In this document: piece after piece, positions 1,939 through 20,914 of the stretch
Layout: each line of letters starts with the position of its first letter
Position numbering within the stretch: position 1 is the first letter of the stretch
Origin: a virus
Virus record (IMG/VR): IMGVR_UViG_3300008116_000989
Location: 1 to 21,755 of that record
Direction: 5' to 3' (one strand)
Length of the DNA stretch: 21,755 bases
Made by a program: the position numbers and the translations under genes
The notes under the pieces: generated by a model
The model's input: only the letters and a program-made list of their open reading frames with translations
Told to the model about the DNA's origin: nothing
Databases searched by the model: none

Positions 1939-2676
1939 ATGAATAGGTTATGGATTTTCGGTGATAGTTTTTCTCACGGACATGGGTTTAACGATGAAGA
2001 CCCCTTTTATGAAAATACACTATTGGAAAATGTGGATAAACGATATTGGGGAGAAATAGTATCGGATGAATTGGGATTGGAATTGATAAACTGCGCAAGA
2101 GTTGGAGCATCAAATGATTACATATTGGATGCTATTTTAGATAATGCAAAAAATATAAAAGAAGGAGACTATGTGGTCATTCAGGCCGCATATTATAGTA
2201 GGTTTGATATACCACACATTACATCATTTAATTTTTTACATACCATCGTCCGATACGGCGATAGTAGAGATATAAAAGTTAATATGATTGGTGATGACCA
2301 AATAACACCAGAAAAGCATGAAACACTAGTAGATTTTGCAATTTACTTTGCAGGATTGCCCGCATATGAGCATAGGCAATTAAATAGATTTGAAAAATTA
2401 ATTCAATTGTTACCTACAAAAAATATAGTATTTTGGTGTTTGAAAAAACCAAATTCACCGAATATAAATGAAATAGAAATTTTGAATAAAGAATATTTTA
2501 TTAAATTCGATAATCAATACATAGGAGCAGAAGATTCATATAACACATATAAAGCAAGAATGTGTGATGAAGACCCTTCTACAACCGATGGGCATATTGG
2601 TGTATTAGGACAACAAGTTATGGCACATGAGGTTTTAAAAAAATTTGGAAAACACTATGCAGACAGAAGAAAATAA
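1939..2676 (+). CDS. SGNH/GDSL-type hydrolase-like protein (copy 1)
   Basis: 245 aa. Block I is FGDSFSHG with candidate nucleophile Ser10; the Asn block is GASND with Asn59; the C-terminal catalytic pair is in TTDGHIG (Asp217/His219) followed by a helix, as expected where block V closes the fold. SGNH enzymes are esterases, acetylesterases or lipases; the substrate cannot be read here. There is no signal peptide, so it acts in the cytoplasm or in the virion. It is the first of five such genes between 1939 and 6352, and it has the most complete set of catalytic-type residues. It overlaps the next gene by 20 bases. Confidence 0.75.
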   Translation: MNRLWIFGDSFSHGHGFNDEDPFYENTLLENVDKRYWGEIVSDELGLELINCARVGASNDYILDAILDNAKNIKEGDYVVIQAAYYSRFDIPHITSFNFLHTIVRYGDSRDIKVNMIGDDQITPEKHETLVDFAIYFAGLPAYEHRQLNRFEKLIQLLPTKNIVFWCLKKPNSPNINEIEILNKEYFIKFDNQYIGAEDSYNTYKARMCDEDPSTTDGHIGVLGQQVMAHEVLKKFGKHYADRRK

Positions 2677-3430
2677 TATATTTGCAGTCGGTTGTTCTTT
2701 TACTTGGGGAGAATCATTGCAATTTTTTTCAGGTTTAGAATCTGTAATTTGGAAAGAGGTAAGACCTTCTTTTCCAGATGCAGAAAAAACATTGGATGAA
2801 GGTCAATTAAATTTTATAAAAGAGAATCGTTGGGTAGCGCAATTAGCAAAAAAATTGGGAGTAGAATATATCACACAATCTAAAAATGGTGGTGCAAATT
2901 TTCAATCTCTTTTAAAGTGTAAATACTTTTATCAACACGAAGAAAATATAAAAAAATATAAAATTTGTATTCTTCAAGTAACACAATTCAGTAGAGACCC
3001 AATTGTTTGTAAAACTCCTGATGGGGAGTATATTTCTGTTCAAGACTTTTCAACAATGATTTCAGATTTTAATATCTTAAATGTTAAAAATGAAGATATT
3101 GTCGCAGATTCTTATACATACTTCTATGATAAATGTTTTGATTTTTTTGAAAAGCTAGAAAGCTTAGGCGTAACCCCATTTATATTTTGTTACCCCATTG
3201 AATCGGTGGATTCTTTACTAAAACATAAAGTAAGTAAATATCATGTAAAATTAAAATATGATAATCAAGAATTTAATTCAACCGATGACTTGGTTAAAAA
3301 ATATCCGTTATTCACAATTGAAAACTATTTTGCAGAAAAAAATCTAAATAAAGGTGATGTTCATTTGACATTAGATGGACATAAAATAATTTCAGATAGT
3401 ATTTATAGTAAAGTAATATCAAACTATTAA
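2657..3430 (+). CDS. SGNH/GDSL-type hydrolase-like protein (copy 2)
   Basis: 257 aa from the ATG at 2657; a TTG at 2645 would add four residues and is less likely. Block I is VGCSFTWGES with candidate nucleophile Ser14, the Asn block is NGGANFQSL, and the C-terminal segment DVHLTLDGHKIISDSI supplies Asp/His. The layout parallels copy 1, although the bodies of the proteins are very different. The middle is rich in Lys, Asp and aromatic residues and has no membrane segment. Likely esterase fold; target unknown. The start lies inside the previous gene, indicating translational coupling. Confidence 0.72.
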   Translation: MQTEENNIFAVGCSFTWGESLQFFSGLESVIWKEVRPSFPDAEKTLDEGQLNFIKENRWVAQLAKKLGVEYITQSKNGGANFQSLLKCKYFYQHEENIKKYKICILQVTQFSRDPIVCKTPDGEYISVQDFSTMISDFNILNVKNEDIVADSYTYFYDKCFDFFEKLESLGVTPFIFCYPIESVDSLLKHKVSKYHVKLKYDNQEFNSTDDLVKKYPLFTIENYFAEKNLNKGDVHLTLDGHKIISDSIYSKVISNY

Positions 3431-3440
3431 AATTATAATC

Positions 3441-4280
3441 ATGCTACTTAAAAGAGGAGATAATAACGAGAATGTAAAATTGATGCAGGAGAAATTAGGA
3501 ATCTCTCCGGCAGTAACTAACTTTGGACCAAAAACCGAAGAAGCAGTAAAAGAATTCCAAAGAAAACATGGATTAACTGCAGATGGTATTGTTGGGCCTA
3601 AAACTTGGGAAATGATTGTTGGTTCTGCAGCACCTGCACCAGCACCACAACCTGTGGCACCAATTGCACCTGTAGGTGGTTTGAAATTAGATAAACTTAA
3701 AGGTCATATTCCTGATGCAGTAATCGCAATGATTCCTGATACGGCAGCTAAATTCCAAATTAACACTCCATTAAGATTAGCACACTTTTTAGCACAATGT
3801 GGACATGAGAGTGGTGGATTCCGATTAACACAAGAGAACTTAAACTATTCAGCAAAAGGTTTGAATGGTATCTTTAAAAAATACTTCCCAACAGAGGCGG
3901 CAGCAGCAGCTTATGCTAGAAATCCACAAAAGATTGCAAACAAAGTATATGGTAATCGTATGGGTAATGGTGATGAAGCAAGTGGTGATGGTTACAAATT
4001 TCGTGGCCGTGGATATATCCAATTGACAGGAAAGGATAACTATACTGCATTTGGTAAATCAATCGGTGAAGATATTTGTGCAAACCCAGATAAGGTAGCA
4101 TCACAATACGCTTTATTATCAGCGGCATGGTTCTTCTCTAAAAACGGATTACATAAGATGGCAGATGGTGGTGCAACTGATGCAGTAGTAACATCTATTA
4201 CTAAAAGAGTAAATGGTGGAACGATTGGATTAGCAGATAGAATAAAACATTTCAAAGAATATTATCATCTATTAAGTTAG
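3441..4280 (+). CDS. Endolysin: peptidoglycan-binding domain plus GH19 lysozyme/chitinase domain
   Basis: 279 aa, modular. Residues 1-60 form a PG_binding_1 domain (NENVKLMQEKLG... FGPKTEEAVKEFQRKHGL..DGIVGPKTW). An Ala/Pro linker covers about 62-80. Residues 82-279 match glycoside hydrolase family 19 as used by phage lysozymes: CGHESGGF with likely catalytic Glu123, then NGDEASGDGYKFRGRGYIQLTG at about 177-196, which carries the second acidic position and substrate-binding strand. The enzyme would cleave the glycan backbone of peptidoglycan. It has no signal peptide, so release needs a holin; candidates lie at 12065 and 12767. It sits between SGNH-like genes, ten bases after copy 2. Confidence 0.92.
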   Translation: MLLKRGDNNENVKLMQEKLGISPAVTNFGPKTEEAVKEFQRKHGLTADGIVGPKTWEMIVGSAAPAPAPQPVAPIAPVGGLKLDKLKGHIPDAVIAMIPDTAAKFQINTPLRLAHFLAQCGHESGGFRLTQENLNYSAKGLNGIFKKYFPTEAAAAAYARNPQKIANKVYGNRMGNGDEASGDGYKFRGRGYIQLTGKDNYTAFGKSIGEDICANPDKVASQYALLSAAWFFSKNGLHKMADGGATDAVVTSITKRVNGGTIGLADRIKHFKEYYHLLS

Positions 4281-4286
4281 TAGTTT

Positions 4287-5033
4287 ATGTTTAATCAAAA
4301 AAAGTTATATGTTGGGGGATGTTCATTTTTAGAAAACCCAAATATTTTACTAAATACAGAATTGAGTGACCACTTTGGGCCTGACCCCATTGTGATAAAC
4401 GCAGCTGCCGGTGGTAGTAATAATGATGCTATATTTAGAAAAGCATATTTTTCACTTTTGAGAAACGATTTTGATTTTGTATTAATCGGATGGACGCAGG
4501 TCTGGAGAATATCAAAAGTTATGGATGTTTTTAAAGAGGATACTGCATATCTAAAAGCATTAACTGATGAATCATATTCATCTATATTAAATACAACGCA
4601 GTATTACACTGCCATTATAGGAAATGATAAAAATTATAATAGATTTTCTCATTTAGAACCGGAAGGAACTGATAATTGTATAATGTATACAATAATCCTG
4701 CATCGTTTAATGAAAGAAAGGGGTATTCCACATTTATTTATATCAATGGGTAATGTTTTTAATTCGACATTGGGTGCAAGACCAGGATGGTTAGAATTTA
4801 TAGATACAAAAAATTATTTTGGTAGTGGTGAATTAAAAGATAAAATGGCAGTTTGTATGACTGATGAATTTCATAATGAACATAAAAATATGTTTGGTGA
4901 AAATTATCACGATTCAACATATACACATCCACTATCACTCATAAGAGATAATGCAAATCATCTAACCGATAGAGGTGGTAGGATGTTGGCAAAACAAATA
5001 TTAGAATACATTAAAGAAAATGGAATCGCATAA
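4287..5033 (+). CDS. SGNH/GDSL-type hydrolase-like protein (copy 3)
   Basis: 248 aa. Block I is VGGCSFLENPN with candidate nucleophile Ser13; the Asn block AAGGSNNDAIF places Asn45 at the expected point after a hydrophobic strand; the C-terminal block is NANHLTDRGGRMLAKQIL with His225. The acidic partner two or three residues before the His is replaced by Asn/Ala, so the triad may be a dyad. A strand FVLIGWTQVWR follows the Asn block, which is typical of this clade. Cytoplasmic or virion protein, no export signal. It overlaps the next gene by 14 bases. Confidence 0.7.
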   Translation: MFNQKKLYVGGCSFLENPNILLNTELSDHFGPDPIVINAAAGGSNNDAIFRKAYFSLLRNDFDFVLIGWTQVWRISKVMDVFKEDTAYLKALTDESYSSILNTTQYYTAIIGNDKNYNRFSHLEPEGTDNCIMYTIILHRLMKERGIPHLFISMGNVFNSTLGARPGWLEFIDTKNYFGSGELKDKMAVCMTDEFHNEHKNMFGENYHDSTYTHPLSLIRDNANHLTDRGGRMLAKQILEYIKENGIA

Positions 5034-5799
5034 ATCAGTTTTATTTTTGGGTTCATCGAATACATTTGGGGTTGGATTACATACATTTAAAACCGAATAT
5101 CTAACAGAATCGGGAGCAAAAAGTTTAAAGTGGCCATACAATCAAACTGGAGAAGATAACGAATTTATAAAATCGGTTAGATGGACAAAATACGTTTCGG
5201 AATACATCCAGAGAAAAGAAATAAATGTAGCTGAAGCCGGTGGTTCGCCTGCTGAATCTTTGTATAGGTTAGAAAATATGAATTTAGAAAATATAGATTA
5301 TATATTTTTTGAGTTTTCTGGAATATACAATTTTTTTGATAGATATTTTCACAATACAGAATATCCAAAAACACCACATGAAATAGAAGCGTTTTTAACA
5401 AATGGAAAAAATGATAGACCGGAATTAAGAAGTAAAATATTAGAATGGTTAGCCAATTATAATCCTGAAGAATTTATAAATGAAGTTATGAATTTGTTAA
5501 AAAAGAAAATAGATGAGTTAGTTAGTAAAAAAATAATTGTTTTGGTTTGGCATGGTGAAATTGATTTTGAAAAATACGATTGGATTAACAGATATATTGT
5601 AAAATTTCCAACAAAAAAAAATTCAAACAATTATGTAGTTCATGATTGGGTTGTAGAAAATGAATTGAGGGTGTGTGATGAGCATCCTATGAAAGATTTT
5701 ATGTATTCAGATATTCATACCGGATTAAAAGGAAATAAATTGGTTGCAGAAATTGTTATAAATCATATTAATGAAAAAGAAAATACTAATAGCTGGTGA
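5020..5799 (+). CDS. SGNH/GDSL-type hydrolase-like protein (copy 4), Asn block changed
   Basis: 259 aa. Block I reads FLGSSNTFGVG with Ser13 at the nucleophile position. The block equivalent to GxSN reads AGGSPAESL, so the conserved Asn is replaced by Pro. The C-terminal segment SDIHTGLKGNKLVAEIV keeps an Asp-x-His pair. The body is rich in Lys/Asn/Phe. Because one oxyanion-hole residue is missing, activity may be altered or lost. The start is inside the preceding gene and its end overlaps copy 5 by 29 bases, so the row is translationally coupled. Confidence 0.66.
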   Translation: MESHKSVLFLGSSNTFGVGLHTFKTEYLTESGAKSLKWPYNQTGEDNEFIKSVRWTKYVSEYIQRKEINVAEAGGSPAESLYRLENMNLENIDYIFFEFSGIYNFFDRYFHNTEYPKTPHEIEAFLTNGKNDRPELRSKILEWLANYNPEEFINEVMNLLKKKIDELVSKKIIVLVWHGEIDFEKYDWINRYIVKFPTKKNSNNYVVHDWVVENELRVCDEHPMKDFMYSDIHTGLKGNKLVAEIVINHINEKENTNSW

Positions 5800-6352
5800 T
5801 AGCTTCGCAGCAGATTGGACAAAAAAATATAAAGATGTTTGTGGTTGGGTTAATATGTTACAATCCGATTTTGATGTAACAAATGTTGCAGAGGCGGGAG
5901 TAAGTGAATATAAAATTTATAAACAATTAGATAATGTCGATGTATCTAAATTCGACCACATAATTGTTTCACACACATCAGCATATAGAATACCAATAGT
6001 AGAACATCCAATTCATAAAGGTGATTTGTTACATAACAATTGCGACATAATTTATTCAGATGTAAAGGAACATACCCATAATCCGATTATGAAAACGGCA
6101 ACGGATTTTTATGGAAGTATATTTCACCCAGAGTATTTTTGTTTTGTAAATGATTTGATATATAAAGAGATTTATAATTTAGTACCAAACGCACTTCATA
6201 TTACTTTCTTTAATAGTTTTTATCCAAAAAATGTTTTGAAATTTGAAGAAATTTTCTTATCTTCAAAGGGAAACGCAAATCATTTAAATAAAAAAGGAAA
6301 TGAATTTGTGTATAAAACAATTTTAAAAAAATTATCAAATGGAAAAAATTAA
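5771..6352 (+). CDS. Short SGNH/GDSL-type hydrolase-like protein (copy 5)
   Basis: 193 aa, the shortest of the group. Block I is LIAGDSFAADW with Ser11; the position of the Asn block reads EAGVSEYKIY, where Glu replaces Asn; the C-terminal block is GNANHLNKKGNEFVYKTIL with a His but no Asp immediately before it. The similarity to copies 1-4 is limited to these blocks and the alternating strand/helix layout. Likely a degenerate member of the same fold. No export signal. Its 3' end overlaps the next small membrane-protein gene by 14 bases. Confidence 0.64.
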   Translation: MKKKILIAGDSFAADWTKKYKDVCGWVNMLQSDFDVTNVAEAGVSEYKIYKQLDNVDVSKFDHIIVSHTSAYRIPIVEHPIHKGDLLHNNCDIIYSDVKEHTHNPIMKTATDFYGSIFHPEYFCFVNDLIYKEIYNLVPNALHITFFNSFYPKNVLKFEEIFLSSKGNANHLNKKGNEFVYKTILKKLSNGKN

Positions 6353-6525: not shown

Positions 6526-6571
6526 TAGTTTTGGTTATAATCTTATATTTATGTATGAGAATAACCAACTA
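6526..6571 (+). promoter_or_regulatory. Inverted repeat flanking a promoter-like motif
   Basis: TAGTTTTGGTTAT at 6526-6538 is the reverse complement of ATAACCAACTA at 6561-6571 except for a two-base bulge. Between the arms lies TTATATTTAT. If transcription starts just after the motif, only the right arm would be in the RNA, so the repeat would act as an operator rather than an RNA hairpin. The right arm touches the start codon of the 6571 gene. Confidence 0.4.
6543..6552 (+). promoter_or_regulatory. TTATATTTAT promoter-like motif
   Basis: TTATATTTAT begins 28 bases before the 6571 start. It resembles the Bacteroidota -7 element TAnnTTTG with the final G changed to A. The same ten bases occur at 13057, 15682 and 19722, each at a gene boundary. 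No consistent -33 TTTG is seen at the proper distance, so a phage-specific factor is possible. Confidence 0.45.
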
Positions 6572-7224
6572 TGAAACAAAAAGTAACAGCACTGGCATTA
6601 AGCCTAAAGGAAAGAGCTATATATTTTATATTAGCTCCGTTTTTAACATTTATTGGACTTGCGTTCCTATTCCAAGTCTTCTTTGTAATCCTTCAATTTA
6701 GTGGAAACGAAAATCTTGCAACACAAATTGCAAATGAAATTACATGGAGAATTGATGGTACATTTAAAAATAATCCAGATAACATTTGGTATGAAGCAGA
6801 TGAACACATTTGGGTTGAAAGTGTTACCAACAATGTAAAGATAGGTAAATTAGCAGGAAATAGAAATTTAGAATTTGGTGTAAAGAATGTATTAGAGGAA
6901 TATCTACAAGATAAAGGATATGACCTTACTCCATCTGCTCCAAACAAATTACAAGTACAAATCGTATATTTAGATGTTCTTACTACAAAAAAGAACGTAT
7001 CTGTATTCCACAAAAATGAGGAAGAAGTTGTTATCAGAATGAAGGGTATCCTTTACAAAGATGGCAAAAAAGAAAAAGAAGTTATGGTTGAAGAATCATC
7101 TTCTGAAATTTCAATGTCTACACTTATTGTAGACCAAGGTGGAAAGTTTAATCAAACATCATTAAGTAATGCATTAAAGAAAGCTGCAGATAAACTCATA
7201 ACTAAACTTTTTGAAAATAAATAA
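6571..7224 (+). CDS. Membrane-anchored envelope protein with CsgG/TolB-like C-terminal motif
   Basis: 217 aa. One transmembrane segment at about residues 18-42 (IYFILAPFLTFIGLAFLFQVF) is followed by a roughly 170-residue domain expected outside the cytoplasmic membrane. This domain alternates strands (LQVQIVYLDVL, VVIRMKGILYKDGKKEKEV) and ends in a helix with the motif FNQTSLSNALKKAADKL. The CsgG-like protein at 13083 ends with FNQSTISIATKKALDIA, so the two may share a fold of the CsgG/YajG/LptE type. Function unknown; envelope or transport-related role is inferred. It is the first gene of a unit that starts after an inverted repeat and promoter-like motif. Confidence 0.65.
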   Translation: MKQKVTALALSLKERAIYFILAPFLTFIGLAFLFQVFFVILQFSGNENLATQIANEITWRIDGTFKNNPDNIWYEADEHIWVESVTNNVKIGKLAGNRNLEFGVKNVLEEYLQDKGYDLTPSAPNKLQVQIVYLDVLTTKKNVSVFHKNEEEVVIRMKGILYKDGKKEKEVMVEESSSEISMSTLIVDQGGKFNQTSLSNALKKAADKLITKLFENK

Positions 7225-7225
7225 T

Positions 7226-8905
7226 ATGAAAAAATTTTTAACTTTTATAGGGGTATTATTAATATCCCTTTCTTCGTATAGCCAAATTATAGTAAATCAA
7301 TCAATATCATCAGGTCCTTATAGAGTTGGTGATACGTTGACGGTAACTTACAATGTTGATAAGGGAACAACTAAACCAAGATATTTTTGGTTGAGATACT
7401 CTTTTAACAACAAAGCTCTTACCTATGTTTCAACAACATGGAATCAGGGTTCTCAATCACAAACATACTACACAAGTTGGAATAACTACTCATTCAATCC
7501 AAATGCACAGATAAGTGATACTTCATTGTATGCACAATATCAAGCTACACCTTGGGGATATGTAGTAAACAACGATTGGAATGTAGGACAATTAGCAGTT
7601 CAAAGAGCAGACCAATCCGTAAATGGTGTGATAGCAACACAGAAGTATATTCTTAAAGACCAAAACACTTACAATGGAATCTTTAAGTTAAATCTATCAT
7701 ACGCAACAGACAGTGCTACAGGCGCAAACATACCATATGTAAAAACTACCGCAGGACCTACAACAATAACGGGTGTAAGTGGAAACACATCATTTTTCAA
7801 AGTAAGAGTTCTTTTCCCACAAGGATATAATATTACAGCACATCAGGCTCAATTGATGCAACTTAAATCGGATGGTAGTGGTGAAATAGATTGGACAAAA
7901 CCCGCTATAGCAAGTAGAGCATTGGATGGTAGCGGTGAAGCACTATTCACAACGGGTGTTAAAGTTGGTGATAGTTTGGGTGTATGGATTGGTGGAGCAA
8001 TACAGCAAACGTGGATGAATAATATTGTGACAGTATCGGATGCATATAAATCATTCCTTGCAATTTCACAAACCGATATTAATGGTAACCCTACATATTT
8101 CACAAGACCTGTTTTAGAAAAGAAAATTGGTTTAATTACGAAGGATAAAACTGTATTTAGTGAAAGTGATTCTTATTACTCATTCGCTTATGTAATGGGA
8201 CAAGATGTATCCGCAAAAGCATGGATACCAACAAATGCAGCACCTGTTAATGGAGCAGTAAACTACAAATGGCATTCGGGTTTATTAAATCAGAGTTGGT
8301 TGGATGGTGTAGCAAAACATAGAGTATATGTAACAACACCTGCTCAAACCGTAGATGCGGTATTTGCATGGGGTGGTGATTTGGATTGGTCGCATTCATC
8401 TTCACCTGATGCTATCGTAGCAAGTATCAACGCCGGAAATTTCACAAATAAAGCAAACCCTGGTACTTCTGATATTGCAACAATACAAACTATGGCAATG
8501 ACTTCTAATATGAGTAATGTATACCAAAACAAAACAGCAGAGACTGCAAAATTATCAGTTGTTTCCAAATTGGAAAATGGTAAAGTTGTATTGACAGGCA
8601 GTTTAACAAAAGAAGGTTTGGCAGGTTTGCAAGTTGTAATGAATTACGATTCTACAAAACTAACTTTAGAGAATGTAATATTCGATGCAGGTTCAACAAT
8701 TACTAACTTCTCAACACATGATAATGGTAGATTAACATTTGGTTCTATTGACCAATTAAAAACGGCTAGAATTAAAACAGGAACACCTTATAAATTAATA
8801 TTCGCACCAAAGGTAGCATTGACTAATACCGCAGGTTTATTCTTCTTTGTATTGGCAGATGCAGTTGATGGTGCCGGAAACAAAGTTGAACTAACAATAG
8901 AATAA
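7226..8905 (+). CDS. Large exported protein with C-terminal cohesin-like domain
   Basis: 559 aa from the ATG at 7226; an in-frame TTG at 7211 lies inside the previous gene and would spoil the signal peptide. Residues 1-19 are a signal peptide (Lys-rich start, hydrophobic core, cleavage SSYS|Q), with Gln at +1. The mature protein is rich in Tyr, Trp, Asn, Thr and Ser and looks all-beta. A segment IVTVSDAYKSFLA recurs as IVTVSDVYLAFKE in the next gene. The final ~110 residues (VVLTGSLTKEGLAGLQVVMNY onward, ending VELTIE) resemble a cohesin-type domain. Likely an outer-surface protein placed on the infected cell or a virion fibre; neither is proven. Confidence 0.7.
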   Translation: MKKFLTFIGVLLISLSSYSQIIVNQSISSGPYRVGDTLTVTYNVDKGTTKPRYFWLRYSFNNKALTYVSTTWNQGSQSQTYYTSWNNYSFNPNAQISDTSLYAQYQATPWGYVVNNDWNVGQLAVQRADQSVNGVIATQKYILKDQNTYNGIFKLNLSYATDSATGANIPYVKTTAGPTTITGVSGNTSFFKVRVLFPQGYNITAHQAQLMQLKSDGSGEIDWTKPAIASRALDGSGEALFTTGVKVGDSLGVWIGGAIQQTWMNNIVTVSDAYKSFLAISQTDINGNPTYFTRPVLEKKIGLITKDKTVFSESDSYYSFAYVMGQDVSAKAWIPTNAAPVNGAVNYKWHSGLLNQSWLDGVAKHRVYVTTPAQTVDAVFAWGGDLDWSHSSSPDAIVASINAGNFTNKANPGTSDIATIQTMAMTSNMSNVYQNKTAETAKLSVVSKLENGKVVLTGSLTKEGLAGLQVVMNYDSTKLTLENVIFDAGSTITNFSTHDNGRLTFGSIDQLKTARIKTGTPYKLIFAPKVALTNTAGLFFFVLADAVDGAGNKVELTIE

Positions 8906-8906
8906 T

Positions 8907-10990
8907 ATGAGAACGTTATTAGTTACATTATTCTTACTTATATCATTTTTTGGGTTTGGGCAGTCAGTAACGGCGCCCGAACCCAAATCGTTTGCTATTA
9001 ATACCCCTAACCAAGATGCAAGTGGATTTTCCCTAAATGGGTTTAGTTCAACAGCAACACTTCTTTGTGCTATTGGATTACCACAAGCTCCAACTGGAAC
9101 AACATTTTATTTATCAACTACAACAGGATTAACACCTGCAAGTGGTTATACAATGACCGGTAATAAAACTCGTTTAGCATTTACGGGTACAATGGCAAAT
9201 ATAAATGCCGCACTAGCAACACTAAAAGTAAATACAAACGCCACAGCCGGTAACATACAAATATCAGTATCAGCAACTGTTAATCCAACTGATTATTTTT
9301 ATAATCCTTCAAATGGACACTTTTATAGACCAATATCAACTGGTGCAACATATTCAAATGCTAAACTACTTTCATCACAACAAACTTTCAAAGGACAGCA
9401 AGGATATTTGGTAACAATTACTTCATCCGATGAAGATGCTTTTATATTTGCAAATGTTCCGCAAGCTAGTATTTGGTTTGCATTAACCGATGAAATAGTT
9501 GAGGCACAATGGAGAATTGATGCAGGACCCGAAGCAGGAACTTTGATTAAAACATCAAATGGACAAACCGCTGGAAATATACAAGGCCAATATAACAACT
9601 GGGCACCTGGTGAACCAAACAATAGTGGTAACGAAGATTACGCAGTAACTAAATGGGGTGGTGGTTCTCAATGGAACGATTTACCAAATAATTTTAGTTG
9701 TGCGTATGTAGTTGAATTTGGAACTTGGACTAATCCTGATAACCAAACATTTACTGAATTTTATTCTAATAGTGTAATTCATTCAAACGGAGATATATTT
9801 AGAGTTCAATATACTTTTAACTTTACTAATCTTACCGCATCTCGTTTCTCAATTCGTACTCAATCACAATCTAATAATGTATGGACACCTTTTTCACAAA
9901 ACTATACAGCATTAAACAATATTGGTAGAGCAGATATGAGTAGTCAATCTGATACGGTTAGAATAGGAAATGGCACATTCAGAGCAACCACATCCGGCGG
10001 ACAAGTTGAATGGTGCGTGGTATATGATTATGAACCATCAAATCAAAGATACCAAATACTAATTGATAAAAGAGAATTTACAGGTACAGGCGTTTCATGA
10101 TGGGACTTGGGCAGCATATTGGATTTACACACCAACACAATTTAATTTCGCAGGTTCATCATTTGGTGCTAACATAAGAAGAGCTAGTTTCTTTTGGGGA
10201 TTGAGTGCTGAATTTAGTTTTGCACAATCTCTTGCTTATAAACCACAAAGAGTTCAATTTCAAAATCCAATAGCGGATACAATAACTTCTATGTTAGATA
10301 GAATAGTGACGGTATCAGATGTTTATCTTGCATTCAAAGAGTTTTCAGATGGTGGTGGTATATTTGGACCGGGTAGCGGAACTCAATTTGGTTCTGGTAT
10401 CCAATTTATGAATGCAGATGTAAACGAAGATGGACAGTTTAATGAAGCAGATTGTTTCAAATTATTAAGACATCTTTTAGGACAAGAATCATTACTTTCC
10501 GCAAATAATCTTCAATCATTTATGAAGATACTTCCAAAATCAGATTACGATGCTGTAACTAAAACCAATTGGCAAACTTATCCAAATACAACATCAGATA
10601 CTTATGGAAGTTTAACATTAAGTTCTACTCAATTATTAAACGCATTTACACTTAATACATTTTGGAAAGGGGATGTAAACTATACAATTTAAACCCACAT
10701 TACAAACTATTGCAGGAACTCAATTAAGAATAAACTACGATAACAAAATCATTTCATATACAAAAACAGATATAAACACAAATGGTTCACCATCAAACTT
10801 TGCAACAAATAGAGGAAACTTTGTAAATATTGGTTCATTGAATACTGATGGTAGTTCAATATCAAATGCAACTTACAGAATTGTATTTAAAGCAAATCAA
10901 AACCTAAAAGGTATTTTGGGATTAATTAGTATTGATAATATAGAAGTTGTAGATAAGAATGGAATAATTGTAAACACAAGAATATTATAA
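8907..10990 (+). pseudogene. Exported cadherin-like / C-type-lectin-like / dockerin-like protein, broken by two frame shifts
   Basis: Frame 1 runs 8907-10100, the second frame covers about 10063-10692, and the third continues to the TAA at 10988-10990. Removing one base near 10090 (for example TTT to TT) and one near 10675 (for example AAA to AA) restores a 693-aa protein. Order: signal peptide 1-18 (FFGFG|Q); cadherin-like domain at about 42-124 (LAFTGTMANINAALATL); C-type-lectin-like domain at about 131-272 with GYLVTITSSDEDAFI, GEPNN and QWND; second region with IVTVSDVYLAF; dockerin/EF-hand-like DVNEDGQFNEADCFKLL; and a last cohesin-like stretch after 10686 (QLRINYDNKIISYTK). The lectin part suggests carbohydrate binding. 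Both breaks fall at short homopolymers, so sequencing error and true decay are both open. Confidence 0.7.
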
Positions 10991-11634: not shown

Positions 11635-11952
11635 ATGTCAGAAGAATTAGAACAATCAAATGACGGTACTTGGTCGGGTCTTAAAAAGACTGTTATCGGT
11701 GTCGTTACAACTGCAGTAATGGGATTAGGAACTTGGGGTGTCACTCAAATCACAGGCGGTGGTGATGAACCAGCACCTGCCCCGGCAGCTGCACCCGTAA
11801 TTAACATTACAAACTCAAACCAACAATCTCAAGCGGCAGGTGGAACTACCGTAATTAAAGAGAAAGTGATTGAGAAGCAAGCAGCACCTGCAGCAGCACC
11901 TGTTAAGAAGAAAGATGGTGATGAGTTTAAAGAGAAACCTGCTGAATGGTAA
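11635..11952 (+). CDS. Small protein with one membrane segment and Ala/Pro-rich tail
   Basis: 105 aa. A polar N-terminus (MSEELEQSNDGTWSGLKK) precedes a hydrophobic segment at about residues 19-40 (TVIGVVTTAVMGLGTWGVTQI). The rest is low complexity: an Ala/Pro stretch, an Asn/Gln stretch, a Lys/Glu/Val segment that may form a short helix, and a second Ala/Pro/Lys tail ending KPAEW. It lies among holin-like genes and could be a lysis accessory or a spanin-like anchor, but no diagnostic motif is visible. Confidence 0.6.
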   Translation: MSEELEQSNDGTWSGLKKTVIGVVTTAVMGLGTWGVTQITGGGDEPAPAPAAAPVINITNSNQQSQAAGGTTVIKEKVIEKQAAPAAAPVKKKDGDEFKEKPAEW

Positions 11953-12064: not shown

Positions 12065-12730
12065 ATGGCAGAACAACAATCAGGCTTTAGAGAATTATTG
12101 GCCAACATGATGAAACGTAGATGGTTCATTACCGCATTGGTATTGGGTGGATTTATGTTTATTATGGCAGGTATGTTCGCAGCAATTGGTTTACAAACTC
12201 CAATAGCAGGTGAATGGAAAGAATTATTACTCCTTTTATTAGGTGCATTTATTGGTTCTTATGGTAAAATCATCGACTATTGGTTTAGTGATACCGATAA
12301 GGATAAGATGTTAGTTCAGAAAATGGATGAGGAAGATGGTGTATCTCTTTCACATACAAACGATATGAAAGAAAGTAACAAACCTGTAACACCACTTATT
12401 CCAGACGCGTTTGTACAAGCTGCAAATCACGCACATGAAATCAACTTAATCGAAGCTAACAAACCAACTGATGTTTCATATACTGAAAATAAGGTTCAAG
12501 CTGACGTAGTTGATACAAAACCTAAATCACAACCAAGAACTGGTGTTGAGGTAGATGAAGATGGTGATGGACAAATGGATGGTATTGACTTTGATGGTGA
12601 TGGTAAGATAGATGTATATTTTGCACATAGACAATGTGAACACATTTGGGGCGATTCCGATAACGATGGTGATTTGGAATGTTTGAAGTGTGGTAAGATA
12701 AAAGATGAAGCCGCTGAAATGGTAGGCTAA
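12065..12730 (+). CDS. Holin-like membrane protein with EF-hand-like repeats and a C-terminal zinc-ribbon-like motif
   Basis: 221 aa. Two membrane segments at about residues 21-42 and 52-68 are connected by a short loop (QTPIAGEWKE), the hairpin architecture of many holins. A long acidic tail follows. At about 163-183 there are tandem Asp/Gly repeats (DEDGDGQMDG, DFDGDGKID) of calcium-binding, EF-hand or thrombospondin-3 type. Next comes C-x-H at 191-193 and C-x2-C at 206-209 around another DSDNDGD loop, a zinc-ribbon-like arrangement. Holin, anchor or regulator roles are all possible. The combination of membrane hairpin, Asp-rich loops and Cys/His cluster is unusual for a simple holin. Confidence 0.6.
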   Translation: MAEQQSGFRELLANMMKRRWFITALVLGGFMFIMAGMFAAIGLQTPIAGEWKELLLLLLGAFIGSYGKIIDYWFSDTDKDKMLVQKMDEEDGVSLSHTNDMKESNKPVTPLIPDAFVQAANHAHEINLIEANKPTDVSYTENKVQADVVDTKPKSQPRTGVEVDEDGDGQMDGIDFDGDGKIDVYFAHRQCEHIWGDSDNDGDLECLKCGKIKDEAAEMVG

Positions 12731-12766: not shown

Positions 12767-13027
12767 ATGGGATTTTGGAAAGATTTATTTAATGACAACA
12801 ACACAATCAACGAAAAATCAGTAGTTGGTTTCGGAGCATTTTTAATGATGGTTGTTACCCTTTCAGTAGACATCGTAACAGGTGTAATGGGTAGAGAAAT
12901 GCCAATCCACGAATTTGTATTTGATGGATTTATGGTAATCACATTAGGTGCATTTGGTATCGCTTCAGTTGATAAATTTATCAACGCAAAGAAGGGAAAT
13001 AAACCGGATGAAGAAGAATTAGGATAA
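12767..13027 (+). CDS. Two-transmembrane holin-like protein, 86 aa
   Basis: The N-terminus MGFWKDLFNDNNTINEK is amphipathic. Two hydrophobic segments follow at about residues 18-40 (SVVGFGAFLMMVVTLSVDIVTGV) and 48-66 (FVFDGFMVITLGAFGIASV), then a charged tail KGNKPDEEELG. Size and topology fit class II-type holins that work with cytoplasmic endolysins such as the one at 3441, though it is 8.5 kb away. It is the last gene before a strong terminator. Family assignment by topology only. Confidence 0.6.
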   Translation: MGFWKDLFNDNNTINEKSVVGFGAFLMMVVTLSVDIVTGVMGREMPIHEFVFDGFMVITLGAFGIASVDKFINAKKGNKPDEEELG

Positions 13028-13030
13028 ACG

Positions 13031-13058
13031 AAAGGGAGTATCTAAACTCCCTTTTTTT
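13031..13058 (+). terminator. Rho-independent terminator
   Basis: AAAGGGAGT (13031-13039) pairs perfectly with ACTCCCTTT (13046-13054) across a six-base loop ATCTAA, and seven T residues run from 13052 to 13058. It lies four bases after the stop of the 12767 gene, so it ends the 11.6-13 kb unit. Confidence 0.9.
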
Positions 13059-13066
13059 ATATTTAT
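13057..13066 (+). promoter_or_regulatory. TTATATTTAT promoter-like motif
   Basis: The motif starts at the end of the terminator T-run and lies 16 bases before the CsgG-like start codon. Because transcription from upstream should stop here, a new start is needed, which makes this the best-supported copy of the motif. Confidence 0.55.
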
Positions 13067-13082
13067 AGTAAAAGATTTATGT

Positions 13083-13802
13083 ATGAAAAAATTATTCGTA
13101 TTATTCGTTGGCTTTTTGTTAAGCAATGCTGTGGTTGCCCAAACTGTGGGAAGCACAAAAACTGAACAATATAAAGCATCATTTGAAACCGCAATCGATA
13201 TTTCTAACTTTTTAGATTATGAAGGACCTCAAATTCCTATTCAAATCTTAAAATGTGGTATTTCTGATGAGATGTATGAAATGTATCCAGAACTAAAAGA
13301 AAAGAGAGTAGGTTTGGGTGTAGCTAATATCTCAATGGAATATTTGGAAAACCTCAATCGTTTTAAATTTACCGAAGATAAAACAGAAATTAAGAATAGA
13401 ATGGTGCAACAATTTAAAGCATCAAATGCTGGTATTTCTGAAAACAAAATCGAAGGTAGAGGTAAAATCAATTTGGCTAAATATTTTGTAACAATTGAGT
13501 GTTACGATTATTCAGTATCGGAAGATGAAACCATAAACCTTAAAGATGGTGTTAAGAATATGATGGTAACCCGTATCGGTTTACAGGTTAGATTTACGGA
13601 TGCAGAAACTGGAGTAGTATTCGGAGCAAGTGGTTTGGGTGAAGCAAAAACTACAAGGGAATTAACATTCTTATCAGATGCAACTGTTGATGAAGTTAAA
13701 TTCAATCAATCAACTATTTCAATTGCAACAAAGAAAGCATTGGATATTGCATGTGCTAGAATTTTGGATAGAATGATTAAGAAAGGAATATTTACAAAAT
13801 AA
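13083..13802 (+). CDS. CsgG-like exported protein
   Basis: 239 aa. Signal peptide of about 19 residues ending NAVVA|Q. The mature protein follows the CsgG pattern: a VGLGVANIS strand, ENLNRFKFTE, an amphipathic connecting region, KYFVTIECYDYSV, then GLQVRFTDAETGVVFGASGLGEA and a C-terminal helix FNQSTISIATKKALDIACARIL. CsgG is the outer-membrane pore of curli secretion in bacteria, and CsgG homologues occur in some marine phages. Here the lipidated Cys of bacterial CsgG is replaced by Gln at +1, so it would be soluble or inserted without lipid anchoring. It leads a unit with a lipoprotein and a beta-barrel-type protein. Confidence 0.75.
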   Translation: MKKLFVLFVGFLLSNAVVAQTVGSTKTEQYKASFETAIDISNFLDYEGPQIPIQILKCGISDEMYEMYPELKEKRVGLGVANISMEYLENLNRFKFTEDKTEIKNRMVQQFKASNAGISENKIEGRGKINLAKYFVTIECYDYSVSEDETINLKDGVKNMMVTRIGLQVRFTDAETGVVFGASGLGEAKTTRELTFLSDATVDEVKFNQSTISIATKKALDIACARILDRMIKKGIFTK

Positions 13803-14005
13803 TGATAAAGTTAAGTAGTTTAATTAAAGAAGCAAGTCCAGACCACTCAAATGATAGAGATATGGTAGTAGGTGTTGCGGAAATAATTAAAATGGTAAAA
13901 GACAAAGATAATAGAAAAGATATAGCAGTAGCAATGATGGCAAAATTCAGAAATGAAGATGTTATATTTGATAAAGATGAATTTTTAAAAATGTGTCAAA
14001 TATGA
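13802..14005 (+). CDS. Small helical protein, 67 aa
   Basis: Begins MIKLSSLIKEASPDHSND, similar in its first residues to the 186 gene (MIKLKDLL). The rest is Met, Lys and Asp rich with predicted helices (MVVGVAEIIKMVKDKDNRKDIAVAMMAKF) and no membrane segment. The start shares one base with the upstream stop (TAATG) and its end overlaps the next lipoprotein by four bases. Function unknown; the short MIKL-start pattern is frequent in small proteins of T4-like marine phages by my recollection. Confidence 0.65.
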   Translation: MIKLSSLIKEASPDHSNDRDMVVGVAEIIKMVKDKDNRKDIAVAMMAKFRNEDVIFDKDEFLKMCQI

Positions 14006-14271
14006 AAAAATTAATTTTTATAATTTTATTATTTTTATCGGCTTGTGCACCGGTTAGATATGTCTATGTTGACCCAAAAGATTCTACAATAAAGAGACAG
14101 AGGGTAATATATGATGACTTATACGTTCCATCCCCATTATTTTTTAATTATGGTTGGAATACTCCATTTTATAATCCAATTATTATACAAAGACAAAGAC
14201 CTATTGTAATACAACCAAAAAGACCACAACCATCGACACCTATTAGAAAATTTGAACCACGTAAAAGGTAA
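14002..14271 (+). CDS. Small lipoprotein, 89 aa, Pro/Arg-rich
   Basis: The ATG at 14002 is preferred; an in-frame GTG at 13993 adds three residues. The lipoprotein signal ends LFLSAC|APVR with lipidated Cys at residue 14. The mature chain has aromatic and Tyr/Asp-rich parts (YVYVDPKDS, LFFNYGWNTPFYNP) and a Pro/Arg/Lys-rich C-terminus. It stands between CsgG-like and beta-barrel-like genes, so it may be an outer-membrane accessory. Its stop shares a base with the next start. No recognised family. Confidence 0.68.
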   Translation: MKKLIFIILLFLSACAPVRYVYVDPKDSTIKRQRVIYDDLYVPSPLFFNYGWNTPFYNPIIIQRQRPIVIQPKRPQPSTPIRKFEPRKR

Positions 14272-15680
14272 TGAAAAAATGGTTAATCGGTCTTGCTATA
14301 GGATTATTGTTTGCTTTTCAAGCTAACGGACAAACCTATACTCAATCGTATGTAGATAAATGTACGGGGGAAGTAAAGATAGTTACCACAACTTATATAA
14401 ACGGAAATGCGGTAATATCTTTTTATAATCAAGTCAGAACATTCACACCAACAGAAGTAGCAAATGGAACGGTGCAAGCATGGTTAAATACCGTCTATGC
14501 ACAATATTCTACATTAGCATGTCCTACTAACCAAGTAGTTCAACAGACAGTTCAAAACACAGTATCACAAGCAGCAAGTTCAGCCGCATCACAGGCTGCA
14601 AGTTCAGCTGCTTCATCTGCAGCAAGTAGTTCAGCATCATCGGCAGCATCTTCATCTGCAAGTACAGCTGCAAGTAGTAGTGCAGGAGCATCAACCCCAC
14701 CACCAACATCATCGGCACCACCTGCAAGTAGTGGTACGTCACAAAGTGGGGGTAGTTCTTCATCATCTTCATCACAAAGTGGGGGTAGTTCTTCATCTTC
14801 GGAAAGTAAAACAGAAACAAAGACTGAAACTAAAACGGAATCTAAATCTGAAACTAAATCAGAAAGTAAATCTGAATCTAAAGAAGAATCTAAATCGGAA
14901 AGCAAGAGTGAAGAAAAAAAGGAAGAGTCTAAATCAGAAGAAAAAAAATCCGATGAGAAAAAAGAAGAAAAGAAAGAGGAAAAAAAGGAAGAGAAGAAAG
15001 AAGAAAAGAAAAAAAGTGGAAATCTAAATCCAATGATGTTTGCTTCGGACTTAACAGCAGCACAAAACCCTGATAGGAGATTAAATATGATTATCGGATT
15101 GGGTTGGAGTAGAGCAAGTATGGCGGGTGATGAAACATTTTCGGCAAACGCAATGATATGGAGTAACCTAAAGCAATTTGCATTGAGTGGTGGATATACC
15201 AAAATGGAATTTGAAGAAGGTTCATTAAAAGCAATACACTCATATGGAACTACGTTTGCATATTTGGATGGTAACTTTATGAATTTACTATCCTATACCT
15301 ACGTTAGACCGCATCCAAAATGGGGAACATATGGATATAATTTGGGAGCAATCAATTTGATATTAAGAAATGCAACAAATACAGGATTTGATTATAATTT
15401 AGTAACATCAGCTGTAGGATTTTGGACTAAACCATATCCATATAGTAAAAAACTTACACTATCACCACAAGTATTTATGATGGTATCCCCCATATCTTAC
15501 AATGCGGATACAAAAATGACAATGGTAAATAGACACGCAGGATTTCTATTAGGAACATCAATAGATTACAAAATAAGTAAAAGATTTGGATTCAGCATAA
15601 ACTACAAAGCAAACTTAAACACAGCACCTGGTTCACCATTCTTACACAATGTATTAATTGGTAGTAGATTAATTTTATAA
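14271..15680 (+). CDS. Exported protein with low-complexity linker and C-terminal beta-barrel-like domain
   Basis: 469 aa. Signal peptide ends FQANG|Q at residue 20. A small N-terminal domain (21-95) contains Cys31 and Cys84. Residues about 100-175 are Ala/Ser then Ser/Gly/Pro repeats; about 178-250 are Lys/Glu/Ser repeats becoming pure Lys-Glu blocks. The C-terminal 215 residues alternate amphipathic strands (LNMIIGLGWSRASM, FALSGGYTKMEF, LLSYTYVRPHP, RFGFSINYKANL) and end in SRLIL, typical of outer-membrane beta-barrels. The linker could cross the periplasm or bind peptidoglycan by charge. Its closest context is the CsgG-like gene, in the same unit. Not a recognised porin. Confidence 0.7.
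   Translation: MKKWLIGLAIGLLFAFQANGQTYTQSYVDKCTGEVKIVTTTYINGNAVISFYNQVRTFTPTEVANGTVQAWLNTVYAQYSTLACPTNQVVQQTVQNTVSQAASSAASQAASSAASSAASSSASSAASSSASTAASSSAGASTPPPTSSAPPASSGTSQSGGSSSSSSSQSGGSSSSSESKTETKTETKTESKSETKSESKSESKEESKSESKSEEKKEESKSEEKKSDEKKEEKKEEKKEEKKEEKKKSGNLNPMMFASDLTAAQNPDRRLNMIIGLGWSRASMAGDETFSANAMIWSNLKQFALSGGYTKMEFEEGSLKAIHSYGTTFAYLDGNFMNLLSYTYVRPHPKWGTYGYNLGAINLILRNATNTGFDYNLVTSAVGFWTKPYPYSKKLTLSPQVFMMVSPISYNADTKMTMVNRHAGFLLGTSIDYKISKRFGFSINYKANLNTAPGSPFLHNVLIGSRLIL
14739..14797 (+). repeat. Two tandem copies of a 33-base repeat unit inside the 14271 gene
   Basis: TCACAAAGTGGGGGTAGTTC followed by TTCATC occurs at 14739-14764 and 14772-14797, an exact 26-base match at a 33-base period. 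It encodes SQSGGSSSS twice. Exact copying at the DNA level suggests recent duplication, in contrast with the codon-scrambled Ala/Ser and Lys/Glu stretches around it. Confidence 0.8.
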
Positions 15681-15681
15681 T

Positions 15682-15691
15682 TTATATTTAT
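15682..15691 (+). promoter_or_regulatory. TTATATTTAT promoter-like motif
   Basis: Located just after the stop of the 14271 gene at 15680 and 23 bases before an ATG at 15715. It probably serves the 15.7-19.7 kb unit. No terminator hairpin is visible between the stop and the motif. Confidence 0.45.
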
Positions 15692-15982: not shown

Positions 15983-16772
15983 TTTAAAAATTGCGGTTAT
16001 ATTTGGTGGACAATTAAGAACCGGTGTTGAAACTTCCAAAAGTATATTTAATTTTTTAGGAGAGTATTTACCTAATTGTGATTTTTTTGTACATACTTGG
16101 GATATTACCACATATAAAAGAAATGATTATCACGGGTCACACTCACCAACATTCGATTGGGATGCTATAAAATTGAAAGAGGAATACCTAAATCAATTTT
16201 TAGAAATATACAAACCTGTAAAGCACGAAATTACACCGTTTTTAAAATTTAGAAAAGAAGTAGAAGATACCAAAGAATTTTCAGGTACGCATTGGATGTA
16301 TTCTTTTTGGAAAGTCAATGAACTAAAAAAAGATTACGAAAAAGAAAATCGATTTAAATACGATTACGTTTTAAAAGTTAGAGGGGACCTTTGTTTTAGA
16401 ATGGATGTATTTTTAAGAGAGCACATCAATCTGTTACAAAAAAATGAAAATAAAAGGTCAATATTTTTATTTGAGGATATGTACTACATAGCAACTTCGG
16501 AGGTAATTGATGAATTGGCTAATATGGGGCATCCAACAAATGGTACTTTTAAAAATATAGATGGGTTTCAGAACGATTTAAACAGAAATATTATAAAATA
16601 CATAGAAACCACCTTTAATAGAATACCACAATTTCATCAATCGGAATCCGGATGCGATTACTTTTTATTAAGAAATACAGCAAAGCACCTACCATACGAA
16701 AAAATGGATGAAATGGTAAAAATATTTAATACTTATTATGAAAATCACGATTTTAATGAAAAAACTATTTAA
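15975..16772 (+). CDS. Glycosyltransferase-like protein
   Basis: 265 aa from ATG 15975 (preceded by AAAAGG). Starts with a strand and loop LKIAVIFGGQLRTG followed by CDFFVHTWD, and has YDYVLKVRGDLCF near residue 135. The pattern of GGQLR, HTW and an R-x-D-L motif after a YDYV strand is common in GT-A-like proteins of phages and capsule loci. A sugar-nucleotide-dependent transfer is inferred; donor and acceptor are unknown. No export signal. It overlaps the next gene by 17 bases. It may modify virion proteins, phage DNA or host surface glycan precursors. Confidence 0.6.
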   Translation: MSDLKIAVIFGGQLRTGVETSKSIFNFLGEYLPNCDFFVHTWDITTYKRNDYHGSHSPTFDWDAIKLKEEYLNQFLEIYKPVKHEITPFLKFRKEVEDTKEFSGTHWMYSFWKVNELKKDYEKENRFKYDYVLKVRGDLCFRMDVFLREHINLLQKNENKRSIFLFEDMYYIATSEVIDELANMGHPTNGTFKNIDGFQNDLNRNIIKYIETTFNRIPQFHQSESGCDYFLLRNTAKHLPYEKMDEMVKIFNTYYENHDFNEKTI

Positions 16773-17361
16773 TTTAATTGCAATACTTTTAATAGGAATT
16801 GCATCTTACGGACAAGACACAGTTAGAGTAAAAAACAATGTATTTGAAACTCTTTATTCACAATCATTGGAGCAACCACTTTGGATTAAGTATCGTTCAA
16901 TAAATCGACCTACAAACGTTAATAGAGGTACAATGGATTTCTATACCGAGAAGGGTATTAAGACATCAGATGCGGATGATTATAAGGCTAACATATACGA
17001 TAAAGGACATGGTGCACCAGCTGCAACATTTTCTGATAATATGGTAAATCTAAAGCAAACATTCTCATATCTAAATTGTATTCTACAAGACCAATATCTT
17101 AATAGAGGTGAGTGGAGATTGTTAGAGGAGCAAGAAAGAAAATGGGATGATGTAGAAAATCTGACAGTATTAATAACAATTCATTTCGATAAACCAGTAA
17201 AAAGAATACCTACAAACGCAGCAATCCCATCTTATTTAGAAAAACACATTTACTTTGAAAAATCAGGTAAATGGAAATGTTTTGTATTTTTAAATCAGAA
17301 GCCACAATATAAGTGGGAACAATTAGAAAAAATTTGTGAACCATCAGAACACAAAAAATAG
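16756..17361 (+). CDS. Exported DNA/RNA non-specific endonuclease (beta-beta-alpha-metal fold)
   Basis: 201 aa from ATG 16756, chosen because it gives a clean signal peptide ending IASYG|Q at residues 19-20; an ATG at 16738 would add six residues. The mature domain holds DDYKANIYDKGHGAPAA with catalytic-type His85, then QTFSYLNCILQDQYLNRGEW with Asn116, about 31 residues after the His as in Serratia nuclease. This is the Endonuclease_NS family (NucA/NucG). Secreted or periplasmic cutting of nucleic acid is predicted: scavenging, clearing DNA after lysis, or blocking other phages. The start lies inside the glycosyltransferase-like gene. Confidence 0.85.
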   Translation: MKKLFNLIAILLIGIASYGQDTVRVKNNVFETLYSQSLEQPLWIKYRSINRPTNVNRGTMDFYTEKGIKTSDADDYKANIYDKGHGAPAATFSDNMVNLKQTFSYLNCILQDQYLNRGEWRLLEEQERKWDDVENLTVLITIHFDKPVKRIPTNAAIPSYLEKHIYFEKSGKWKCFVFLNQKPQYKWEQLEKICEPSEHKK

Positions 17362-20185: not shown

Positions 20186-20914
20186 ATGAGATTATCAAAA
20201 AGTTACGATTTTTACTTATTTGGATGTTCACACACTGCAAATTTTCAAACAGATTTTAGGCGTGAAATACCAGAGCATTTTGTACATGCTTTTTGTTTTG
20301 GGGGAAATTCAAACGATAAAATAATTAGAGATTTAAAATCTCAAATATACAAACTAACAAATGGTTTTACGCAAAGTGTTAGAAACGTATATTTTAACAT
20401 ACAATTTACCTATTTCAATAGAGCAAATTTTTTTTCTGATTTAGAAGGAAAGTATATTCCATTTCATTCTACAAATATTATGAATCAACCATTTGGTACG
20501 GAAAATGGTGAATGTAATGTAATCTATAACCAATTTTATACAGATTGGCTAACATATTTTTTTAATGAACAAAACAGACTAGAAGAATTATTAATGGAAT
20601 GCCAAATTATTAAAAAATTAATGGATGATTTTGGTATAAAATATAATTGGTATTTGTGGGCTGGGATAAACAACGTAGAAACAAAAAATTCAAAAAAAGA
20701 GTTTGAAGAAAAAAAACCAATTTTTGAAGATAGATTTGAAAAATTAGGATTTCATAAATTTGATGAATTTTGGTATTTTGAAGATTATGCAATAAAACAT
20801 AAAATGCGTCTTATAGATATTATTGGTGGTCCGGAAGATGAACATTTATCAGGAGAGTCCAATAAAAAGCTAATAAATACACTATTATCAATATTTAATG
20901 ATAAAATATCTTAA
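20186..20914 (+). CDS. SGNH/GDSL-type hydrolase-like protein (copy 6)
   Basis: 242 aa. Block I LFGCSHTANF gives candidate nucleophile Ser15; the Asn block reads CFGGNSNDKIIRDL; the C-terminal catalytic region reads GPEDEHLSGESNKKLINTLL with Asp-Glu-His. The same G-C-S form of block I occurs in copies 2 and 3. It is 14 kb from the other five, beside glycan-modifying genes, which strengthens a glycan-ester link for the whole group. No export signal. Confidence 0.7.
   Translation: MRLSKSYDFYLFGCSHTANFQTDFRREIPEHFVHAFCFGGNSNDKIIRDLKSQIYKLTNGFTQSVRNVYFNIQFTYFNRANFFSDLEGKYIPFHSTNIMNQPFGTENGECNVIYNQFYTDWLTYFFNEQNRLEELLMECQIIKKLMDDFGIKYNWYLWAGINNVETKNSKKEFEEKKPIFEDRFEKLGFHKFDEFWYFEDYAIKHKMRLIDIIGGPEDEHLSGESNKKLINTLLSIFNDKIS

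Follow-up and report, generated by a model that had tools for sequence, protein, structure and literature searches.

Aquatic phages related to Flavobacterium phage immuto keep a CsgG-like gene and a tethered-barrel gene together near genes for secreted sticky proteins

Organization and conservation of the locus

The window (the whole stretch of DNA analyzed here, 21,755 nucleotides of IMG/VR virus record IMGVR_UViG_3300008116_000989) contains, as read directly from its sequence, four open reading frames (239, 67, 89, and 469 aa) arranged head to tail within positions 13083-15680, in agreement with the initial annotation. The features of this segment and of its 5' boundary are as follows:

13030..13056, + strand: intrinsic-terminator-like hairpin AAAGGGAGT...ACTCCCTTTTTTT, 5' of the unit (sequence read directly)
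13058..13066, + strand: promoter-like motif TATATTTAT, 25 bp 5' of the CsgG-like gene (motif count in the window)
13083..13802, + strand: predicted CsgG-superfamily exported protein, 239 aa (AlphaFold2 (AF2) with Foldseek/VIA, hhalign, > 500 viral relatives)
13802..14005, + strand: 67-aa accessory protein, rarely conserved
14002..14271, + strand: 89-aa lipoprotein with lipobox FLSAC (LSAC), rarely conserved
14271..15680, + strand: tethered barrel partner, 469 aa (N-domain next to the CsgG-like gene in 160/162 loci)
14331..14534, + strand: N-domain of the partner, residues 21-88, with invariant Cys31, Cys84, Phe, Gly, and Trp (alignment of 28 diverse members)
14535..15017, + strand: Ala/Ser-rich (partly helical), then Lys/Glu-rich low-complexity tether (sequence; pLDDT < 50 for residues 119-250)
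15027..15677, + strand: predicted 12-stranded outer-membrane beta-barrel, residues 253-469, with a hydrophobic C-terminal strand (AF2; FapF, NalP, and KdgM matches)

The terminator/promoter junction placed ahead of the unit in that annotation is present: the hairpin and the TATATTTAT motif directly after it form the boundary between the CsgG-like gene and the preceding gene, and a second copy of the motif lies at 15683. The window holds five copies on the + strand and none on the - strand (chance expectation of 1.77 for both strands), and four of the five sit 20-57 bp 5' of a gene. As a general promoter of CsgG-like genes the motif was rejected, an upstream copy being found in merely 10 of 155 loci. 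Upstream of the junction, the window encodes a membrane-segment protein with calcium-binding-like DEDGDGQMDGIDFDGDGKID repeats (12065-12730) and, as its neighbor, a small two-helix holin-like protein (12767-13027).

When viral contigs were scanned twice for the CsgG-like protein, 491 relatives were confirmed in one scan and at least 538 in the other; contigs carrying its gene number more than 500 and reach 326 kb. The nearest cultured relative is gp017 of Flavobacterium phage immuto (54.5% identity over 92% of the protein), a phage annotated with T4-type gp20 and gp23. The gene is phage-restricted and near-absent from host chromosomes: a genome search found it on two genome contigs alone, the sole strong match among 395 Bacteroidota genomes was one MAG that had already been found before, and the same MAG was the only one of 296 genomes to contain the N-domain of the partner.

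The linkage between the first and the fourth gene is fixed, with the N-domain partner beside the CsgG-like gene in 79/80 clade-A and 81/82 clade-B loci from IMG/VR, and with a stop/start overlap or a distance of ≤ 30 bp between the two genes in 96 loci, although near-duplicates are common among the sampled loci and these counts therefore overstate independence. The 67-aa gene was found in 4 of 82 loci (window copies included) and the lipoprotein gene in 10 of 82. Since genes 2 and 3 are so seldom present, the originally proposed four-gene unit was dropped; across other phages it is genes 1 and 4 that stay together, and these by themselves are the conserved unit, the 67-aa and lipoprotein genes being local accessories. 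As a description of the full module the four-gene unit is also too narrow, in that the conserved module reaches upstream of 13083-15680 and includes p105, a second CsgG-like protein, and cohesin and lectin genes.

Predicted folds of the CsgG-like protein and its barrel partner

Neither protein of the pair has a usable match in Pfam, PHROGs, or NCBIfam; Pfam PF03783 (CsgG) matched nothing in the 239-aa protein or across four phage genomes, and a PDB sequence search with the CsgG-like profile likewise returned nothing. The AF2 model of the 239-aa protein (25-member alignment, mean pLDDT 75.5) retrieved only CsgG among its top Foldseek matches (4uv2, E 6.7e-7), followed by PelC, and it was matched by VIA to CsgG 6l7a with Z 11.6 over 174 residues at 9% identity. 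The hhalign comparison of the CsgG-like profile with a 12-member CsgG profile (E. coli CsgG and 11 bacterial relatives) was colinear over 177 columns (probability 73.8, E 2.9e-5); this profile was required, as the lone E. coli CsgG sequence gave no match. A BFVD fold search yielded one annotated phage CsgG as well as weak remaining matches. Because the AF2/Foldseek/VIA results and the profile comparison agree, while the sequence libraries are blank and identity is only 9%, the predicted CsgG fold is well assigned but the relationship is remote, and the proposal of an exported CsgG-like protein stands.

This similarity raises the question of whether the protein acts as a genuine CsgG-type nonameric outer-membrane pore, i.e., a pared-down curli channel for secretion or uptake. 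CsgG itself is the best structural match, and two long beta-hairpin strands are extended in the AF2 model, but the equivalent of pore hairpin 1 carries a conserved acidic SVSEDE segment where CsgG proteins are Gly-rich (32% charged and a mean of 4.3 acidic residues in the CsgG-like family vs. 15% and 1.2 in CsgG). The window protein has a signal peptide without a lipobox and so lacks the lipoprotein anchor of CsgG, and a lipobox-like signal occurs in 25 of 158 members, most of which have a cleavable signal without one. Moreover, neither CsgF nor curlin repeats scored over the cut-off in seven related phage records (which may be incomplete), in line with the absence of a curlin-like repeat protein noted from the window; for this reason curli secretion is unlikely, and we regard the pore reading as quite improbable. 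Judging from sequence and model, the CsgG-like protein may instead form a periplasmic ring, and the acidic segment in place of the Gly-rich hairpin makes it more likely that the membrane is spanned by the separate barrel. Of the suggested outer-membrane pore or barrel, the barrel is retained, and the CsgG-like protein is less likely than the barrel to span the membrane.

The 469-aa partner is composed of a signal peptide, the N-domain, an Ala/Ser segment that is partly helical, the Lys/Glu tether, and a C-terminal barrel. AF2 confidently predicts a 12-stranded outer-membrane barrel for the latter, spanning residues 255-468 in the model; this bears out the beta-barrel-like end recognized in the initial annotation. 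Its structural matches (FapF as the top Foldseek match, NalP, and KdgM) are general for 12-stranded barrels. Matches of the whole protein in sequence libraries were discarded, being confined to the low-complexity tether. A PDB sequence search with the N-domain profile found nothing, and the N-domain alignment is too variable for scanning viral sequences. Partners from the immuto-like clade share the layout of the window protein, with an N-domain, a Gly/Ser/Asn-rich tether, and a diverged C-terminal region that appears barrel-like by eye from its sequence. Some clade-B phages encode a separate protein of 262-273 aa that resembles the barrel domain of the window and adjoins the mini-CsgG gene (L088:3741-4535, L137:8661-9449, L163:9513-10334), and therefore the barrel exists in both fused and stand-alone forms.

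A larger exported module and the rival readings

The pair is part of a more extensive exported module, which in the window comprises the following genes:

6571..7224, + strand: p217, a second, smaller CsgG-superfamily protein (shared motif, Lipoprotein_16 (YajG) match, HMM cross-match)
7211..8905, + strand: exported protein with a C-terminal cohesin-like domain (orthologue L003:378-2060 vs. Cohesin 3.7e-6; HMM)
8907..10990, + strand: exported C-type lectin/dockerin protein, three ORFs in the window (Lectin_C; Dockerin_1 8.7e-4; a single 763-aa ORF in L003)
11635..11952, + strand: p105, inner-membrane-anchored, with one TM segment, a Pro/Ala-rich periplasmic tail, and a conserved C-terminal Trp (alignment; constant neighbor of the CsgG-like gene)

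Among loci with full flanks (≥ 5 kb on each side of the CsgG-like gene; 41 in clade A and 48 in clade B), p105 is present in 41/41 and 48/48, p217 in 38/41 and 48/48, and the lectin in 28/41 and 42/48, respectively, and a cohesin HMM match was obtained in all 41 clade-A loci. The motif FNQ(S/T)..(I/L)S.A.KKA is shared by p217 and the CsgG-like protein, and their HMMs cross-match; hence, these phages carry two CsgG-superfamily proteins.

Most clade-B loci (76 of 82) encode, upstream of the CsgG-like gene, a protein whose C-terminus is T9SS-tail-like; the distance is 1.0-2.8 kb in those inspected, and the tail-like proteins that were scanned with Pfam bear cohesin. Pfam Por_Secre_tail, indicative of type IX secretion cargo, scored over the cut-off once per genome in four phages; it was seen in sister-clade neighbors only and was not found in the cohesin protein of the window. 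In a reciprocal search for new loci via the cohesin-tail protein alone, both p105 and the CsgG-like gene were recovered in 23 of 25, the other two contigs stopping before these genes would be reached.

Several further observations concern the neighborhood. Cohesin and dockerin-like domains adjoin in phage loci (window 7211-10990; L083:4961-5692; L109:3649-5553); the cohesin protein of the sister clade has a type IX secretion tail (Por_Secre_tail) at its C-terminus, and in L109 a single protein combines a dockerin-like stretch, cohesin, and the tail. The split of the lectin/dockerin gene at 8907-10990 into three ORFs in different frames may reflect an assembly error, a pseudogene, or programmed shifts. 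At 16738-17361 lies an exported DNA/RNA non-specific endonuclease (Endonuclease_NS, E 4.9e-18), a secreted phage nuclease that is module-linked in some phages. Six look-alike proteins (1939-6352 and 20186-20914) have an initial GDSF/GCSF/GSSN motif as in SGNH hydrolases and no relevant Pfam match.

The two proteins of the pair evolve very differently. Relative to the window copies, the CsgG-like protein shows dN of 0.02-0.10 and dS of 0.5-1.6 (dN/dS about 0.05, strong purifying selection) and the barrel shows dN of 0.18-0.43, about seven times that of the CsgG-like protein, at similar dS (dN/dS about 0.3); the ratios are rough because synonymous sites are near saturation, and the contrast between the two proteins is clear. 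A fast barrel is what would be expected of exposed loops, and one reading of it is superinfection exclusion, in which the surface-exposed barrel and the ring would mask or remodel receptors without any export. The decameric surface-exclusion lipoprotein TraT is indeed among the structural matches, but weakly (Z 6.8), and the cohesin/dockerin/lectin genes and p105 would be left unexplained. We consider this reading unlikely as the main role, and it is compatible with a surface-display model.

Phage receptor-binding proteins can contain C-type lectin domains, so that the module might alternatively encode virion components, either exported for late assembly or serving as tail or decoration proteins. 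The signal peptides, along with a distance of at least ~65 kb between the immuto module and the annotated baseplate, tail, and capsid genes, make such a role very improbable.

Finally, p105, the CsgG-like protein, and the tethered barrel might span the envelope as a spanin-like device or gated pore that breaches the outer membrane late in infection. The layout of p105, taken alone, resembles an inner-membrane spanin, holin-like or endolysin genes are sometimes near, and CsgGF of phage Melnitz has been suggested to act in lysis (PMC9004378). Nevertheless, the endolysin linkage is variable (6/41 clade-A vs. 26/48 clade-B loci) and the annotated holin-endolysin pair of immuto lies ~30 kb off, which together make lysis less likely; very low dN/dS and constant lectin/cohesin neighbors are also atypical of lysis genes, and we view this explanation as rather unlikely.

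Proposed role and comparison with known systems

Among the uses initially suggested for the unit, export fits the gene neighborhood best and release fits it less well. Based on gene linkage and on the structural analogue PelB-PelC, we tentatively favor, at somewhat less than even confidence, an envelope ring-and-barrel complex that would export or anchor the phage's own surface proteins on the infected cell. During infection of a Bacteroidota cell, the CsgG-superfamily protein would be exported to the periplasm and form a ring beneath the outer membrane, into which the 12-stranded barrel of the partner would be inserted. The tether would let the N-domain, presumably disulfide-bearing, dock in or on the ring, as the periplasmic part of PelB does inside the PelC ring, and p105 would tie the inner membrane to the complex via its Pro/Ala arm and terminal Trp. 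Adhesion or phage reception might then be altered, or rivals shut out, by the secreted lectin and cohesin/dockerin proteins that such a complex would export or anchor.

Fixed gene order could, however, stem from common timing rather than from a common machine. Cargo with a T9SS tail should exit via the host type IX system, and the ring may therefore be unneeded for it; the window-clade cohesin protein, in which no such tail was detected, counts against the export model. A broader possibility, which we rate as doubtful, is a phage-specific display machine, functionally unrelated to curli and conserved in a large clade of aquatic large-genome phages, that mounts phage cohesin/dockerin/lectin adhesins on infected Bacteroidota, some of them being routed through type IX secretion of the host.

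Overall, the retention of the CsgG-like/tethered-barrel pair near secreted sticky-protein genes in hundreds of aquatic phages related to immuto suggests that the surface of the infected cell is rebuilt. The lineage occurs on more than 500 viral contigs and yet is unmatched in Pfam, PHROGs, and NCBIfam, and its conserved partners indicate surface proteins and not amyloid. If the phages do encode, beside the pair, cargo for type IX secretion by the host, this would give viruses a novel means of dressing the cells they infect, and a cultured member, immuto, makes the question directly testable.

Previous reports of phage CsgG concern SAR11 and OM43 phages, with proteins recognized as CsgG and CsgF: pelagiphages and methylophage Melnitz encode CsgG-CsgF, some with CsgA/B (PMC7029224, PMC9599517, PMC9004378), and there is no consensus on their function. 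The family described here is similar in being a phage-encoded CsgG-fold protein whose benefit has no agreed explanation; it represents a separate and very common lineage that differs in falling outside Pfam CsgG and in having a tethered barrel and surface proteins as its partners. We found no report of a CsgG-like/tethered-barrel module in the open-licence literature. With curli type VIII secretion the 239-aa protein shares its predicted fold, as reflected in the colinear profile alignment, whereas the phage family lacks the Pfam match, mostly lacks the lipid anchor, and has an acidic hairpin instead of a Gly-rich one, a separate barrel partner, and no detected CsgF or curlin repeats. The amyloid secretion barrel FapF, which also follows an N-terminal helical region, resembles the partner at 9% identity, but 12-stranded barrels from other families match equally.

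In the PelB-PelC exopolysaccharide exporter, a periplasmic PelC ring is combined with a separate PelB barrel of 16 strands with TPR repeats (PMC12141448). The phage partner differs in its 12 predicted strands and in lacking TPR; it has a disordered tether and a small domain with two cysteines, and no polysaccharide genes were seen beside the pair. By analogy, and with a putative ring on the phage side, PelB-PelC nevertheless appears to be a better model than curli for the pair, as in both cases a CsgG-superfamily gene stands beside that of an outer-membrane barrel with a periplasmic N-terminal part.
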